From: a virus
Virus record (IMG/VR): IMGVR_UViG_3300023296_001261
Span: 1 to 39,524 of that record
Reading direction: 5' to 3' (one strand)
Length of the DNA: 39,524 nt
Of this stretch, positions 23,073 through 38,482 are shown piece by piece (the stretch's first letter is position 1; each line of letters starts with the position of its first letter). The notes below the pieces were generated by a model. That model worked only from the letters and a program-made list of their open reading frames with translations, was not told the origin of the DNA and searched no databases. Both the position numbers and the translations under genes were made by a program.

Positions 23073-23372
23073 ATGGCGATAGAAGTAGGCCCAAATAAAA
23101 TATCATTCAAAAACAAATATACTGTATATGAAAATGAAATCATATGCACTGTATCGGAGAATGAATTTAATATGACACAAAATCCAACTATCTCAACAGA
23201 TAGTTCGGGTTCACTACGCGATTTCGCTACGGGTTCTAACTTTAAACCTTACGTTACTACAGTAGGGTTATATAATGATAACAACGAACTACTGCTAGTG
23301 GGCAAATTTGCTCAACCACTACCAATGTCTGATGTAACAGACACAACATTCGTAATACGATATGATCAATAA
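23073..23372 (+). CDS. Small structural protein, paralogous to C-terminus of 16990-18036
   Basis: Almost the whole 99-residue protein aligns with the last ~85 residues of the 348-residue fibre protein. Shared features are N-E-F-N-M-T-Q-N-P-T, then V-T-T-V-G-L-Y-N-D-N-N-E-L-L-L-V-G-K and a Q-P-L close. The long N-terminal beta domain of the paralogue is absent. It lies at the end of the adhesin operon, and its stop overlaps the GIY-YIG-type gene by 11 bases. It may cap or dock the same partner as its larger relative. Confidence 0.65.
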   Translation: MAIEVGPNKISFKNKYTVYENEIICTVSENEFNMTQNPTISTDSSGSLRDFATGSNFKPYVTTVGLYNDNNELLLVGKFAQPLPMSDVTDTTFVIRYDQ

Positions 23373-23814
23373 TTACTGGACAGACTTGTCCGGGAAAGTT
23401 TATAACGAAATATCCGATTTCCCGGAAGGTACCTTTGGCTTTGTATATAAAGTAAAAAATACATCCAATGGTAAAATATATATAGGAAAAAAAGTACTAT
23501 ATTTCAATAGAAAGAAAAAACTAACCAAGAAAGAACTAGCCGAAATTACATCCCCAGGACGTAAGCCAACTACTAAAGTAGTACAATTGGAAAGCGACTG
23601 GATGGATTATTGGGGTTCATCTAAAGACTTAATAGCCGATTTTAAAAAACAAACCGGTGAAGGTTTTGAAAGAAAGATACTAAAAGAGTGTCTAACTAAA
23701 AAAGAGTTAACATATTGGGAAATAGCCCATCAACTTAAAGAGGATGTCCTCCTAGTTGAAAGCTATAACGATAATGTCTTAGGTAAATTTTACCGAAAAG
23801 ACGTGGTATATTAA
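23362..23814 (+). CDS. GIY-YIG-like nuclease domain protein
   Basis: In this 150-residue protein residues 26-44 match the GIY-YIG core: G-F-V-Y-K-V-K-N, then N-G-K-I-Y-I-G-K-K. It continues with W-M-D-Y-W-G-S-S-K-D-L (the Y-x-G-S-S helix) and F-E-R-K-I-L-K-E-C...E-L-T-Y-W-E, which can supply the catalytic glutamate. GIY-YIG enzymes cut DNA; in phages they include Seg-type homing endonucleases and free-standing nucleases of unknown role. No DNA-recognition domain follows, so a stand-alone small nuclease is as likely as a homing enzyme. It lies between the tail-fibre and replication modules. Confidence 0.65.
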   Translation: MINNYWTDLSGKVYNEISDFPEGTFGFVYKVKNTSNGKIYIGKKVLYFNRKKKLTKKELAEITSPGRKPTTKVVQLESDWMDYWGSSKDLIADFKKQTGEGFERKILKECLTKKELTYWEIAHQLKEDVLLVESYNDNVLGKFYRKDVVY

Positions 23815-31563: not shown

Positions 31564-32019
31564 ATGAAAAATTTTGATTTAAGAAAATATTTAGCTGAAG
31601 GTCGCTTATTAACAGAAGGAGATTTTGGTGTTAATTTAGAAACACCCGAAAAGGCAGCTAGCTTTAAAGATTACCTATCCCAAAAGGGCATACCAGCTGA
31701 AGTTGATGGTATTTTTGTAGAATTTGATGAAAGTATTTCAATTGATGATATGCGAAAAGTAAGTGTTTTAGCCGATAAATTTTTGGGCACATCACAAGAT
31801 TCTTCACCATTTAAATATAAAAAACCAAGTGATACTATAACGCTAGCCGTAGATAAGGCATATTACGATGACGATAAAGGTGAGTTTACTCTAACACCTA
31901 CAGATGTTGTAGTAACATCAGATAATTTTGAAGATATTATATTTGATGAAGTAGGAGATGAAGGGGTAGATTTTACAAATTATGTTCGTACATATCCTAA
32001 AATCTTTAAAAGAGTTTAA
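31564..32019 (+). CDS. Small leader-peptide protein, predicted head-packaged
   Basis: The ATG at 31564 is preferred over the one at 31537, which lies inside the previous gene. It gives 151 residues beginning M-K-N-F-D-L-R-K-Y-L-A-E-G-R-L-L-T-E. Two sites follow each other: Y-L-A-E and L-L-T-E. This is the closest match in the window to T4 capsid-targeting peptides, and it is very similar to the leader at 36683. The rest is a small acidic alpha/beta domain with no recognised motif. It starts two bases after the previous stop. Confidence 0.65.
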   Translation: MKNFDLRKYLAEGRLLTEGDFGVNLETPEKAASFKDYLSQKGIPAEVDGIFVEFDESISIDDMRKVSVLADKFLGTSQDSSPFKYKKPSDTITLAVDKAYYDDDKGEFTLTPTDVVVTSDNFEDIIFDEVGDEGVDFTNYVRTYPKIFKRV

Positions 32020-33684: not shown

Positions 33685-35019
33685 ATGGCATACTTTGACT
33701 TAAGAACCTTCATAAACGAGAACAAACTCGGTGCATACGCTTTACTTAAAGAAAACAAATATTTTACCACTGACGAAGATGGTGATGAAATTCTAAACTT
33801 AGATCTAGCATCAGAATATCTATCTCAAACCCATAATGAAGAAGATGTAGAGGCGTTTTTCTCTGATGACGAGGTTTTTGAAGATTTGCCTTATGGTAGT
33901 GAAGATTTTCCAACTGAAGAAGCTGTAGAAGGAGCACTAGATAATGCTTTTGAATTCTATTCAGGAGGAGGAGACGTATTTGAAAAACTCGATCCAGTAG
34001 GTAAAGAAGATTCAGATATAAACAATGATGGGAAAGTTGACAAAACTGACAAATACTTAGCTAACAGAAGAAAAGCTGTATCTAACTCAACAAAAAACGA
34101 AGCAGTAGGAGGCGAAATGGCAGAGATGCTTGGAGCATTCCTTGCCCTAGTTGGCGCTGGTAAAACAGCACTTGAAGCAGTTAAAATCTTAGGCGACGAG
34201 CATGGAGACATATCCATCAGTAGTATCAAAGACGCTATCAAGCAATACAAGGCGTCTAAAGATATGAAAGAAGATTTCGACATTGGGCACGAAGACGACG
34301 AGCCATCTATGTTAAAAAACAAAATGTATAGAGCATCTAAACTTGCCTCTATGTTGTTTGACAAACTAGACAAATATGACGATATGTCAACTGAAGTCGA
34401 TTTCCCAGATTGGTGGCAAACTAAACTATCTAAAGCGAAAGATATGCTACAATCAGCATACGATTATTTGGATGGAGAAGAAGGCGTAGCTCAGATAGGA
34501 GAAAAATATGATAGAGAAGAGGAAGATGGTCATATAGGTACAAATACCGATGATGATTTTGAAAGAGAGATGCTACAGCAACTTGCTCAAAATGAAGATG
34601 TGAATGAAGAAGCTTCTGGGTTAGAATTTAAAGTAGGAGATAAAGTAACATATTTAGGCAACCCAGGTGTTATTACAAATGCTGGAACTGACATAATGGA
34701 TAGACCTCAATATAGTGTATCTTATAATAAAGGAACGGGCGATACTAAAGTCACTAACGTATACAATAAAGGCGGTGAAATTAAAAAAGCAATGTCTGAA
34801 AAAAAGGTAGAAGAAAATTTACTTAAACAAGATGCATTATCACCTGCAGAATATCAAAAAGCTAAAAAACTAAAAGGATTTGATTCTAAAAACTATAAAT
34901 GGGATCCAAAACAAGCTCTACATTTAATTAGAAAAATGTATGAAAAGAAAATAGAAGTAGACGACGATAAAGAATTCACAATCAAACTATCCCACTTACT
35001 AGATAAGCATGCTGAATAA
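33685..35019 (+). CDS. Predicted internal head protein with EF-hand-like loop and GDKV domain
   Basis: This 444-residue protein has a leader M-A-Y-F-D-L-R-T-F-I-N-E followed by A-L-L-K-E. Residues about 25-105 are very acidic. A calcium-loop pattern follows: D111-x-N113-x-D115-G-x-V-D119-x-x-D122, fitting EF-hand/dockerin spacing. After a Gly/Ala-rich segment (about 140-170) comes P-S-M-L-K-N-K-M...D-F-P-D-W-W-Q-T-K-L-S-K-A, a helical module I associate with marine phage proteins. Residues about 315-375 form a second K-V-G-D-K-V-T barrel like that at 30768. The gene overlaps the next by 11 bases. Confidence 0.6.
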   Translation: MAYFDLRTFINENKLGAYALLKENKYFTTDEDGDEILNLDLASEYLSQTHNEEDVEAFFSDDEVFEDLPYGSEDFPTEEAVEGALDNAFEFYSGGGDVFEKLDPVGKEDSDINNDGKVDKTDKYLANRRKAVSNSTKNEAVGGEMAEMLGAFLALVGAGKTALEAVKILGDEHGDISISSIKDAIKQYKASKDMKEDFDIGHEDDEPSMLKNKMYRASKLASMLFDKLDKYDDMSTEVDFPDWWQTKLSKAKDMLQSAYDYLDGEEGVAQIGEKYDREEEDGHIGTNTDDDFEREMLQQLAQNEDVNEEASGLEFKVGDKVTYLGNPGVITNAGTDIMDRPQYSVSYNKGTGDTKVTNVYNKGGEIKKAMSEKKVEENLLKQDALSPAEYQKAKKLKGFDSKNYKWDPKQALHLIRKMYEKKIEVDDDKEFTIKLSHLLDKHAE

Positions 35020-36640
35020 AAAAGAATTCTTACAACTACTAGAACAAGAGGTAGAGGATTTTATCCAAACCCAAGCCGAAAAGGTCGTTAAATTTGAAGA
35101 CGACCCAATGGCATACATACTTCAAAAGTATCCTTCATTACAAGGTACTTTAGAGGACTTAATGACTAGTAGTTTCGAAGACTACATTACAGGCATATAT
35201 GTAATGGCACCCAAGCCAACTACATTCAAAGTCTTACTCCACAACGGACAACAATTTTACCTTATCTATGCTAGAGATTCTTACATAGCAAAAATCGCAG
35301 GTAAAAAATACTATTTACTTAACCTTGGTGAAGAAGAATACGCTATTAAAGCAATAGCCGAATTACTTACAATGGGTAAACCTCCAGGATCACAAGGACC
35401 TGATGGGGAAGAAGAAAATACTACAAATGCTGGCGAAGATGCTGCTGAAGAAGAAGTTCCAGCTGCAGATGATGCAGGTGGTGAAGAAGAAGAACTAGCT
35501 GAAACTAAAGAAAAAGATCCTATAGTAAAAGCAAAAACACCTACACTTAAATTCAAAATTTTGAAAGAAAGCGTAGAAAAAAAAACCTCACCTCTTAAAT
35601 TCCGTATCTTAAAAGAAGCAGAAGTTGATAACTTTGCTAACACTAAGAAAGCAGTAGCTAAAATTGAAAAAGAAGTAGGCTCTAAATATAATATTAAAGC
35701 CTTACCTTCTAAACCCAATAGGTTATCTGCCCCAGGACAAAAAGATCCACAAGTATTTATTGATATAATTAAGGACGTATTTGGCCCAGATACTGAAATT
35801 ACCACACTGGGTCCTAGAAAAGGGGGAAATCCCAGCGGTAAATTCGATATGTATCAATTTGATACTGACGAATTTGGACAAATAAATATTGTAGGAAGTT
35901 ATAGTGCTGTTGGTGGAGCAGGTAAAAGTAATGAAGATGTATTCTTAAATGAACTAAATGGTTTAATTGAACAAGCTGGAGGTAAAGCAACAATTGTAAT
36001 TAAATCACCTGAATACACTGAAACATATAATGATGTAACTCAAGCAATAGATTCCTCTAAAGAAGCATCCTCAAGTGGAGAAAAATCCGATGCTCGTTTC
36101 AAATCAGAAAACAAAACTGTAGCAAACATATCACTTAAACAAGATGGAGGTTTTAGATGGGCTTCAATAGCATCATATCCTAAAGCTAAACCATTCATCA
36201 AAGCTTTCCAAGAAAAGGGAATAGCAGGAGAAATTCCTGTAACATTAAAACCTAACCCTGAAGTACCTGGAAAATATTTGATGTATAATACAGAAACTGG
36301 TGATAGAGTTACTAGAGTAATTGTACCTGATTTTATAGAAGATGATGCTGAAATTAACGACTTCGTATTTGGTCCCGAAGATCCAAAGGTCGTTATAGTT
36401 AGTAGATCTTGGAAAGATAGCGATTTTAAACTCGACGGAAATACTATAACTGTACAAGCATCCCATATATATAAAGACATAAAAGATGTAAAAGGTGGAG
36501 ATATCGACCCTATTTTTGTAGTTGCCCAACACCAAGGAAAACCAATGGGGTTAGATTATAGAATATTCCCAGAAAAGTATGGGAAATATGGGGAAAGAGC
36601 TAAAGGTATTACCCTATCATATAATGATGTGGTAGCCTAA
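35009..36640 (+). CDS. Predicted internal head protein with tandem I-L-K-E sites and a possible nuclease-like domain
   Basis: This is a 543-residue protein. The leader is M-L-N-K-K-E-F-L-Q-L-L-E. An N-terminal domain (about 15-125) is followed by an acidic Glu/Ala/Asp linker (about 130-170). Two nearly identical sites come next, L-K-F-K-I-L-K-E-S (180-188) and L-K-F-R-I-L-K-E-A (196-204). A C-terminal domain follows (about 205-543). Inside it, S-D361-A-R-F and N-I-S-L-K377 show the spacing of a PD-(D/E)XK-like core, but the usual acidic residue two before Lys is Ser, so catalysis is doubtful. The tandem sites would separate the two halves after cleavage. Confidence 0.55.
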   Translation: MLNKKEFLQLLEQEVEDFIQTQAEKVVKFEDDPMAYILQKYPSLQGTLEDLMTSSFEDYITGIYVMAPKPTTFKVLLHNGQQFYLIYARDSYIAKIAGKKYYLLNLGEEEYAIKAIAELLTMGKPPGSQGPDGEEENTTNAGEDAAEEEVPAADDAGGEEEELAETKEKDPIVKAKTPTLKFKILKESVEKKTSPLKFRILKEAEVDNFANTKKAVAKIEKEVGSKYNIKALPSKPNRLSAPGQKDPQVFIDIIKDVFGPDTEITTLGPRKGGNPSGKFDMYQFDTDEFGQINIVGSYSAVGGAGKSNEDVFLNELNGLIEQAGGKATIVIKSPEYTETYNDVTQAIDSSKEASSSGEKSDARFKSENKTVANISLKQDGGFRWASIASYPKAKPFIKAFQEKGIAGEIPVTLKPNPEVPGKYLMYNTETGDRVTRVIVPDFIEDDAEINDFVFGPEDPKVVIVSRSWKDSDFKLDGNTITVQASHIYKDIKDVKGGDIDPIFVVAQHQGKPMGLDYRIFPEKYGKYGERAKGITLSYNDVVA

Positions 36641-36682: not shown

Positions 36683-37057
36683 ATGGATAACTTTAATATT
36701 AAAAAATACTTAAATGAAGGTAGACTATTAAAAGAAATTGGAAAAAAATCCAAACTTCAATTGTTTGAAGATGAATTTACCACAAATTCCCCAACTCTTA
36801 AAAATAAATATATTATTAAATACAAAGAGGGTGAAGATGAACTTTACATGATTGATAACCAAAAAGCACTTGATTATTTAAAACAATTTAATAGTAGTAA
36901 AATAAATGCCAATGCCTTTTTTAAAGATAATGAAGGGTGGGTTGAATTTGTGAACAACTCTCTTGAGGGTGTTGAAAATATGACAGATAAAGAATTAGAA
37001 ACAGCAATGCGTACGGATATGATTGGGTATTACTCCAGCCAACCTGATAAAATATAA
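36683..37057 (+). CDS. Small leader-peptide protein, predicted head-packaged
   Basis: This 124-residue protein begins M-D-N-F-N-I-K-K-Y-L-N-E-G-R-L-L-K-E, very like the leader at 31564 (same length, with E-G-R-L-L shared). Both Y-L-N-E and L-L-K-E fit the prohead-protease pattern. The remaining ~105 residues form a small alpha/beta domain of mixed charge with no recognised motif. It stands alone with its own promoter element and is followed by the 141-base non-coding gap. Confidence 0.65.
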   Translation: MDNFNIKKYLNEGRLLKEIGKKSKLQLFEDEFTTNSPTLKNKYIIKYKEGEDELYMIDNQKALDYLKQFNSSKINANAFFKDNEGWVEFVNNSLEGVENMTDKELETAMRTDMIGYYSSQPDKI

Positions 37058-37198: not shown

Positions 37199-38482
37199 AT
37201 GGGAAAAAACGTAGTAATTGTAGGTGCTGGAGTAGCGGGTGTAAACGCTGCCACAAAATTAGTTGACAACAACTTTGATGGAAAAATTACCATTATCGAT
37301 ATGGGAAAAAACCCATACGATAGACCATACGATGATGTAATGACAGGCTTCCTAGGAGCTGGTGGATGGTCAGATGGTAAATTAACATACCATACAGCCA
37401 TTGGTGGTCAGCTAACAAAATATACAGGTGACGAAAAAGCAATGGAATTAATGGATCAAGTGATCGAAAATTTCAAACGCTTCCATCCTAAACCAGAAGA
37501 AGTACAATGTTCAAACCCTATAGCTGAACCAGATTTTATCAAACCATATTTTGGTTTACGTTTATTTCCTGTATGGCACGTTGGTACAGATTATCTACAC
37601 GAAATAGGTAAAAATTGGTTCGATTTTTTAGAATCTAAAGGTGTAGAATTTGTATGGGAAACTAAAGTAACAGATATTAATTTTGAAGACGAATTTTTAT
37701 ACGCTGGGGGTTCTAAAATACCATACGATACACTTATATTTGGTGTAGGTAAATCCGGTATCGACTTCGGTAAACAATTAGCAGACAAATACGATCTACC
37801 AACCGAACCAAAATCAGTACAAATTGGAGTACGATTCGAGGCACCACAAGAGCACTTCCAGAAACTAATTGATGTATCTTACGATTTCAAATTGTACAGA
37901 AAATACGAGGATCAAGGCGTATCTCTACGTTCATTCTGTACAAACAATAACGCAGCATATGTTGCGGTAGAAGACACATACGGTAACCATAGCTACAATG
38001 GTCACGCTAGAAAAGACGAGAAGTATAGAAACAATATGACAAACTTTGGTATCTTAATGGAAATAAATGGTATAGAAAATCCATTTAGTTGGTCAAGAGA
38101 TGTTGTGTCAAAATTACAGAAAGACGGTACTGGATTGTATTATAGTCCATCTCGCGAACCATCAACTACATCTGAAGGTAAAGATGTATCGTCTATTAAA
38201 ATAGATAGGCTACATGAGGTAACTAAAATAATGCAACCGTATTTCCATTATGTACTCGATTTTATCGAGGATATGAAGAAAGTATTCCCAACACTAAAAG
38301 ACGATTGGGGTATTTACATACCAGAAGTAAAATATTTATCACCAGAACCATTAGTTAACTATAATAATTTAAGCCTTACAAAATATGACAATATCCACTT
38401 CGTCGGAGATGCTCTCTCAGCTAGAGGAATTACAGTATCTGGAGCACAAGGAATCTACGTTGCCGAAGACCTTATCAAATAA
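37199..38482 (+). CDS. FAD-dependent oxidoreductase (COG2509-like)
   Basis: This 427-residue protein has an N-terminal dinucleotide fold V-V-I-V-G9-A-G-V-A-G14 with an acidic residue at the end of the second strand (I-I-D-M). It has a C-terminal FAD motif, H-F-V-G-D-A-L-S-A-R-G-I-T-V-S-G-A-Q-G. In between, I-G-V-R-F-E-A-P and S-L-R-S-F-C-T-N-N-N-A-A-Y-V-A resemble the uncharacterised FAD-dependent dehydrogenase family known from bacteria. It has its own promoter element and no leader peptide, so it probably acts in the infected cell. The substrate is unknown. It is an unusual cargo for a T4-like phage and may be an auxiliary metabolic gene. Confidence 0.8.
   Translation: MGKNVVIVGAGVAGVNAATKLVDNNFDGKITIIDMGKNPYDRPYDDVMTGFLGAGGWSDGKLTYHTAIGGQLTKYTGDEKAMELMDQVIENFKRFHPKPEEVQCSNPIAEPDFIKPYFGLRLFPVWHVGTDYLHEIGKNWFDFLESKGVEFVWETKVTDINFEDEFLYAGGSKIPYDTLIFGVGKSGIDFGKQLADKYDLPTEPKSVQIGVRFEAPQEHFQKLIDVSYDFKLYRKYEDQGVSLRSFCTNNNAAYVAVEDTYGNHSYNGHARKDEKYRNNMTNFGILMEINGIENPFSWSRDVVSKLQKDGTGLYYSPSREPSTTSEGKDVSSIKIDRLHEVTKIMQPYFHYVLDFIEDMKKVFPTLKDDWGIYIPEVKYLSPEPLVNYNNLSLTKYDNIHFVGDALSARGITVSGAQGIYVAEDLIK

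Follow-up and report, generated by a model that had tools for sequence, protein, structure and literature searches.

Tandem I-L-K-E motifs as candidate prohead-protease sites between a putative head-targeting carrier and a nuclease-like domain of a viral protein

Results

A multidomain protein with tandem candidate sites

The window, which makes up all of a linear virus record of 39.5 kb, encodes a 543-aa protein that we call the 35009 protein after the first position of its gene. It is composed of a conserved N-domain, an acidic linker (about residues 126-165), two short cassettes and a large C-terminal domain, which we refer to as the cargo (Table 1). A sequence-only reading had pointed to two nearly identical peptides in this protein, LKFKILKES (residues 180-188, nt 35546-35572) and LKFRILKEA (residues 196-204, nt 35594-35620), and their coordinates were confirmed. 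The starts of the two peptides are 16 residues apart, and both are located C-terminal to the acidic linker and N-terminal to the predicted folded C-terminal domain. The ILKE in each of them matches the L/I-X-E rule of T4 gp21, which cleaves after this motif (PMC9026906).

Table 1. Features of the 35009 protein and of the genes next to it (a slash marks a predicted or candidate cut)
Feature	Position	Strand	Basis
Upstream overlapping gene, N-terminal tandem [IL]xE, FINE/NKLGAYALLKE/N	33685..35019	+	sequence
543-aa protein: N-domain, acidic linker, tandem [IL]xE cassettes, C-terminal nuclease-like domain	35009..36640	+	ORF and relatives
N-terminal segment ending LLE/Q (E12), possible N-terminal targeting/cleavage site	35009..35044	+	shuffle P 0.70
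Conserved N-domain, residues 29-125	35093..35383	+	alignments A1/A2/A6; AF2 model of residues 1-130
Acidic low-complexity linker ending LAE/T (E165), further candidate site	35384..35503	+	sequence
Site 1, LKFKILKE/S, predicted cut after E187	35546..35569	+	motif, conservation
16-residue fragment SVEKKTSPLKFRILKE, enclosed by predicted cuts E187/E203	35570..35617	+	sequence
Site 2, LKFRILKE/A, predicted cut after E203, cargo-proximal	35594..35617	+	motif, relatives, conservation
C-terminal domain, residues 204-543, PD-(D/E)XK-like; predicted mature start A204	35618..36640	+	A4 alignment, AF2, VIA-align
E309, invariant acidic residue, NE helix motif	35933..35935	+	alignment
D361, invariant motif-II-like aspartate (KSD)	36089..36091	+	alignment
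S375-L-K377, invariant SxK motif	36131..36139	+	alignment
Downstream gene, N-terminal tandem sites KYLNE/GRLLKE/I	36683..37057	+	sequence

When the 35009 protein was shuffled 300 times, a pair of 9-mers with at least 7/9 identical residues within 40 residues never arose. We calculated pooled pN/pS from nine sequences with the same spacing, window included (36 non-independent pairs), and obtained 0.29 at site 1, 0.30 at site 2 and 0.70 for the eight spacer codons. The glutamate is kept in 9/9 sequences at both sites, and at site 1 the codons GAA and GAG are both in use. Both predicted cuts are conserved and the peptide between them is under weaker constraint. Because of the shuffling result and the constraint at both sites, the tandem repeat is real and conserved and not a product of chance. 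The LLE/Q at the N-terminus is not significant by itself against shuffles; an [IL]xE is present in the approximately 35 residues preceding the N-domain core in 45 of 50 representatives of the relatives described below.

The N-domain was predicted by AlphaFold2 with a pLDDT of 91.3. No PDB match was returned by Foldseek at E<=0.001, and the frataxin-like rows of the structural alignment reached Z values up to 5.7, which is below the level exceeding a common arrangement. Neither a Pfam family above cut-off nor a PHROG match was obtained for the window protein, searches of Pfam, PHROG and PADLOC left both the protein and its cargo without a usable name, and a search of genome contigs yielded no relative.

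The C-terminal domain resembles PD-(D/E)XK nucleases

In the 40 cargo rows of alignment A4 the residues N105, E106, K156, D158, S172, K174 and W181 (numbered from A204) are invariant, and all 40 rows contain the PD-(D/E)XK residue pattern of an acidic helix residue, an aspartate and SxK. The AlphaFold2 model of the domain has a mean pLDDT of 88.4 and a pTM of 0.68 and shows a helix (100-119), four strands (124-129, 134-145, 159-163 and 166-174), a further helix (190-203) and a strand (208-212). The core of PD-(D/E)XK enzymes has the order alpha-beta-beta-beta-alpha-beta with an invariant E, D and SxK. In the predicted model the order of elements is that of this core, with the conserved residues at the expected places. 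Foldseek found no solved structure for the domain at E<=0.001. Among the rows listed by VIA-align, only that of MspI (1sa3_A) extends over the large domain, and this match is weak (Z 5.5, rmsd 5.7, 171 aligned residues). The likeness to MspI-type nucleases lies in the invariant residues and the core order, while the difference lies in the lack of a significant sequence or Foldseek match and in the modest Z value. Cargo residues 1-99 gave RelA/nucleotidyltransferase-like rows with Z up to 7.0, again below the level exceeding a common arrangement. One profile search of solved-structure sequences had 0 matches, and another had a single match at E 1 that was disregarded.

Models from the Stenotrophomonas phages YB07 and IME-SM1 were matched at E 5e-15 and 3e-14. 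In four records of Vibrio and Stenotrophomonas phages the enzyme begins without a carrier and is encoded amid replication genes. The enzyme would therefore not always be head-bound, and a use in the head would be a trait of the lineage of the window and not of the enzyme. The gene that comes after the free nuclease homologue (L207:4891-5973) of the Vibrio phage EniLVp02 contains a KWDGAP motif and is possibly ligase-like.

Relatives of the N-domain occur in three builds

When viral contigs were scanned with the whole 35009 protein, 11 relatives were identified. An alignment of the N-domain recovered 276 relatives, and the best 80 of them entered the analysis. Together with the window this gave 81 ORFs; three that are open at the 3' end were dropped, and the remaining 78 were reduced at 90% identity to 50 representatives, which are phylogenetically non-independent. 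Fourteen of these 50 consist of the N-domain and an acidic tail only (build A). Another 11 carry in addition a KFRI-like peptide as the extreme C-terminus, such as KKFKIIK, KKFRIKM or LRIKLIRKK directly before the stop codon (build B; ten assigned by pattern and L091 by eye). In the other 25 the linker is followed by one or two KFRI-type or [IL]xE cassettes and then by a large domain (build C, the fused proteins).

A junction [IL]xE at the border of linker and domain is found in 25/25 fused representatives. The residue following the cargo-side KFRI-type site (P1'), with sites chosen by hand, is A in 13, N in 5, G in 3, S in 2 and K and T in one protein each, and L020 has V at P3 of this site (VKE). 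Two KFRI-type sites are present in 10 of the 25 fused proteins, with a spacing of 16 residues in nine and of 14 in one. L036 and L045 combine one KFRI-type site with an SLNE/V (LNE) site, and the junctions of L068 and L077, where no clear KFRI is seen, still have an [IL]xE. Loss of the sites with retention of the fold, which had been named as the case against them, was seen in relatives whose C-terminal domain is missing as well.

Among the 25 relatives without a C-domain a glutamate never follows the KFRI-like peptide (0/25); the peptide is the C-terminus in 11 and absent in 14. Since KFRI is also found at C-termini with no E after it, it should have a function beyond cutting. In build B an [ILV]xE precedes the peptide in 11/11 proteins, and therefore the peptide seems to be bracketed by sites. 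Proteins with an N-domain 80-90% identical to that of the window have C-domains whose resemblance extends from about 50% identity down to none that BLAST recognises. In one ORF at a contig end (L183) the N-domain is fused straight to a truncated cargo without linker or site, which may reflect a deletion or an artefact of the assembly.

The same cargo is found on an unrelated carrier

A search with the cargo alignment returned 104 relatives; the best 80 were kept and 78 of them are new loci. Of the 72 ORFs among these best 80 that are complete at both ends, 67 have an N-terminal piece with a KGYPD signature, an unrelated carrier. We placed a profile that covers the mature cargo from the first helix onwards on the full-length proteins and scored the 14 residues upstream. 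An [IL]xE was present there in 31/31 KGYPD carriers and in 9/10 fused proteins, versus 1164 of 12393 control windows (9.4%), all of which were taken from the cargo interior; three fused rows with a late-starting profile match were skipped, and a further 12 were unmatched. The tenth fused protein is L020, with its VKE before the cargo. In L179, a KGYPD carrier, the junction motif is LFE, and a VDE is closer to the cargo.

At the boundary the fused ILKE/ALSPEAQQAKDILK aligns with the carrier ILNE/ILSPNAQQVVDILK with 76% identity. The point at the cargo boundary where the BLAST segments begin differs among the pairs. A second cargo family allows a comparison of the fused YIKE/ASLSPAELEKPF with free genes (L038, L040 and L057) that start with MSVALSHSQLEKPY and similar sequences. 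The predicted mature start is YIKE/ASLSPAEL, and the free genes begin with MSVALSHSQL or MSVSLSPDQL. These genes are 38-39% identical to the fused L043, their starts are at most two residues away from the predicted cut, and no propeptide is visible in any of the three.

In 63/72 records the cargo is preceded by an N-domain-like ORF no more than about 2.2 kb away, as judged by a loose motif and counting three that are fused themselves and one that is doubtful. The two genes of the pair have an overlap of -1 in 33 records and are separated by several hundred bases in some. Because N-domain-like ORFs are usually found upstream of the cargo, the window protein represents a fusion of two genes that commonly lie near each other. 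The cargo of relatives matches phrog_13937, 1462, 8438 and 12709 ('unknown function'). Tblastn with the window cargo against phages gave no match, and the carrier-plus-cargo protein of a relative used as query hit 71 phage records.

Prohead protease and head genes of the relatives

Peptidase_S77, the family of gp21, was detected in 12/17 records searched, and Gp23 in 12/12 records searched. In the 12 records with the protease its gene is located about 9-19 kb downstream of the N-domain gene. The 39.5-kb window contains no protease gene, and it ends 2.9 kb past the 35009 gene. The other four records with no protease match are 49-91 kb long; in three of them the N-domain gene is 4-6 kb from the contig end, and in G014 about 13 kb remain and still no match was found. 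The proteases of the relatives have themselves an [LI]xE/[SAG] in the N-terminal region (12/12; L099 and L101 are identical there), and T4 gp21 is believed to cleave residues from its own N-terminus (PMC9958956). Candidate cuts of gp23 in this lineage are LLE/N or LVVE/S. Six of ten stretches from relatives were examined gene by gene, and in L119/L120 the N-domain gene lies upstream of terminase, portal and protease.

Candidate tags in neighbouring genes and scaffold tails

An [IL]xE is found in the first 25 residues of 8/9 window genes between 30117 and 36683, a region picked after inspection, and in 8/28 other scored genes (Fisher p 0.002). Single N-termini of the window are mostly not significant against shuffles of the first 40 residues (P 0.02-0.70). 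Tandem N-terminal [IL]xE motifs 6-11 residues apart were seen in the genes 31564-32019, 33685-35019 and 36683-37057. Such N-termini read NFDLRKYLAE/GRLLTE/ or FDLRTFINE/NKLGAYALLKE/, and immuto_193 and 194 of Flavobacterium phage immuto start alike.

Proteins encoded next to the protease, which we regard as the scaffold by position, end with RMQKLAGI(I/K) or a close form in nine records (for example L120:1755-2918 and L012:24608-25849). A QKLAGI-type motif is located near the N-terminus of 12 ORFs (L012, L043, L121, L133 and others), and an [IL]xE comes just after it in 12/12. Three further ORFs (in L184, L199 and L121) end in a QKLAGI-like peptide. As RMQKLAGI(I/K) is common to scaffold C-termini and to N-termini trailed by [IL]xE, the sequences suggest that targeting propeptides copy the scaffold tail (tag mimicry). 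A search of the open-access literature found neither this protein family nor a QKLAGI targeting motif described, which is not proof of absence.

Discussion

We propose that the 35009 protein is likely a head-core carrier from which a nuclease is freed in the prohead by cutting at redundant protease sites, similar to the targeted cargo of T4. The protein would be a pre-protein of the phage head core, in which the N-domain, the acidic linker and the KFRI-type peptides act as a head-targeting carrier and the two ILKE motifs serve as redundant cut sites for the gp21-type prohead protease of the phage. During maturation the protease would cut after E187 and/or E203 and release the PD-(D/E)XK-like nuclease (residues 204-543) within the head, and the freed nuclease would probably be delivered to the host along with the DNA. 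We infer cleavage, packaging, injection, nuclease activity and targeting of the core by KFRI from the sequence, and a role as targeting peptide is suggested for KFRI by its position alone. Redundancy is the most fitting explanation of the duplicate site, since either cut would free the enzyme, with 0 or 16 residues in addition.

The sequence-only reading had regarded the ILKE peptides as cleavage-like and the 16-mer between them as an internal peptide like those of T4 heads. The idea of protease sites gains from the agreement with the gp21 rule, the junction motif of all 25 fused proteins, the lack of a glutamate where the domain is missing and the [IL]xE at the junction of the KGYPD carriers; the idea of a functional internal peptide is not supported. 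That cutting occurs and the 16-mer is the product of interest is very improbable in our view. The spacing of 16 residues in 9 of 10 tandem relatives speaks for it, but 15 of the 25 fused proteins have no KFRI-type tandem pair and the spacer is less constrained than the sites, and we have rejected the 16-mer as main product. It is simpler to view it as a targeting and cleavage cassette and a by-product. One might also ask whether the protein is cut at all. The KFRI peptides could be mere binding motifs for shell or scaffold, with an incidental glutamate, and the 11 of 25 domain-less relatives that end in a KFRI-like peptide without E would agree with that. We consider this improbable, since the junction [IL]xE is found in every fused protein and is kept in L068 and L077, where no clear KFRI is seen, and on the KGYPD carrier.

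It is rather unlikely, but would fit the acidic linker and the position of the gene upstream of terminase, portal and protease in L119/L120, that the sites free the N-domain and the acidic part as a degradable core, and that the C-domain, not being injected, acts while the DNA is packaged or the head matures. Against this, C-domains differ up to the loss of BLAST similarity where the N-domains are still 80-90% identical, which would rather resemble host-facing effectors. A chance or structural repeat without a role deserves next to no credence. The [IL]xE motif is common (1.4% of positions), but the shuffles, the low pN/pS at both sites and the specificity of the junction led us to reject it.

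For the T4 internal proteins IPI-III and Alt, PMC9026906 and PMC9958956 describe a capsid-targeting sequence, a short peptide with L/I-X-E that is removed by the prohead protease so that the cargo is freed in the head, and the mode proposed for the window protein is alike. The window protein differs in that its candidate sites are internal, in tandem and located after a carrier of 203 residues, and in that its natural cargo is nuclease-like. The comparison with IPI-III and Alt is meant by analogy, as a 'works like' only. Fusions of the T4 system with EcoRI or the S. aureus nuclease entered heads (PMC9026906). The head proteins of SPN3US have N-terminal propeptides, most of them 111-254 residues long and with several cut sites (PMC10052503). 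The carrier of the window protein with its 203 residues and two to four candidate sites is similar. However, the SPN3US motif is AXE, while the window protein has L/I-X-E. Phage polyvalent proteins are multidomain, thought to be packaged and in some cases processed. No domain of this kind was recognised in the window protein, and PMC5512222 ascribes the cutting of polyvalent proteins to built-in metallopeptidase domains.

If the proposed head-core carrier is real, it would be a natural counterpart to the engineered nuclease loading of T4 by a cleavable tag, with cargo swaps at the protease sites. It would provide testable starts for phrog_13937, 1462, 8438 and 12709, a candidate docking peptide common to scaffold and cargo and a sequence rule to find head-delivered effectors in environmental phages. 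It would also raise the question of how the phage DNA survives beside a packaged nuclease. More tentatively, and with somewhat less than even confidence, immuto-related T4-like phages might use a modular head loading, in which KFRI or the scaffold-tail QKLAGI act as docking peptides, carriers are cut at L/I-X-E and fast-evolving nucleases are delivered to the host, with the 35009 protein as a fused form.

Some further genes of the window deserve mention. A dehydrogenase-like gene (37199-38482) is retained downstream of the N-domain gene in relatives including L050, L053, L119 and L126. The protein of 33685-35019 contains at about residues 100-139 an EF-hand/dockerin-like DSDINNDGKVDKTDKYL segment that is also present in immuto_191, and it matches several PHROGs without known function. 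The best PHROG for 23362-23814 is labelled NAD synthetase, and homing endonuclease PHROGs were matched too; the protein presumably resembles a GIY-YIG domain, and the NAD synthetase label may be wrong.
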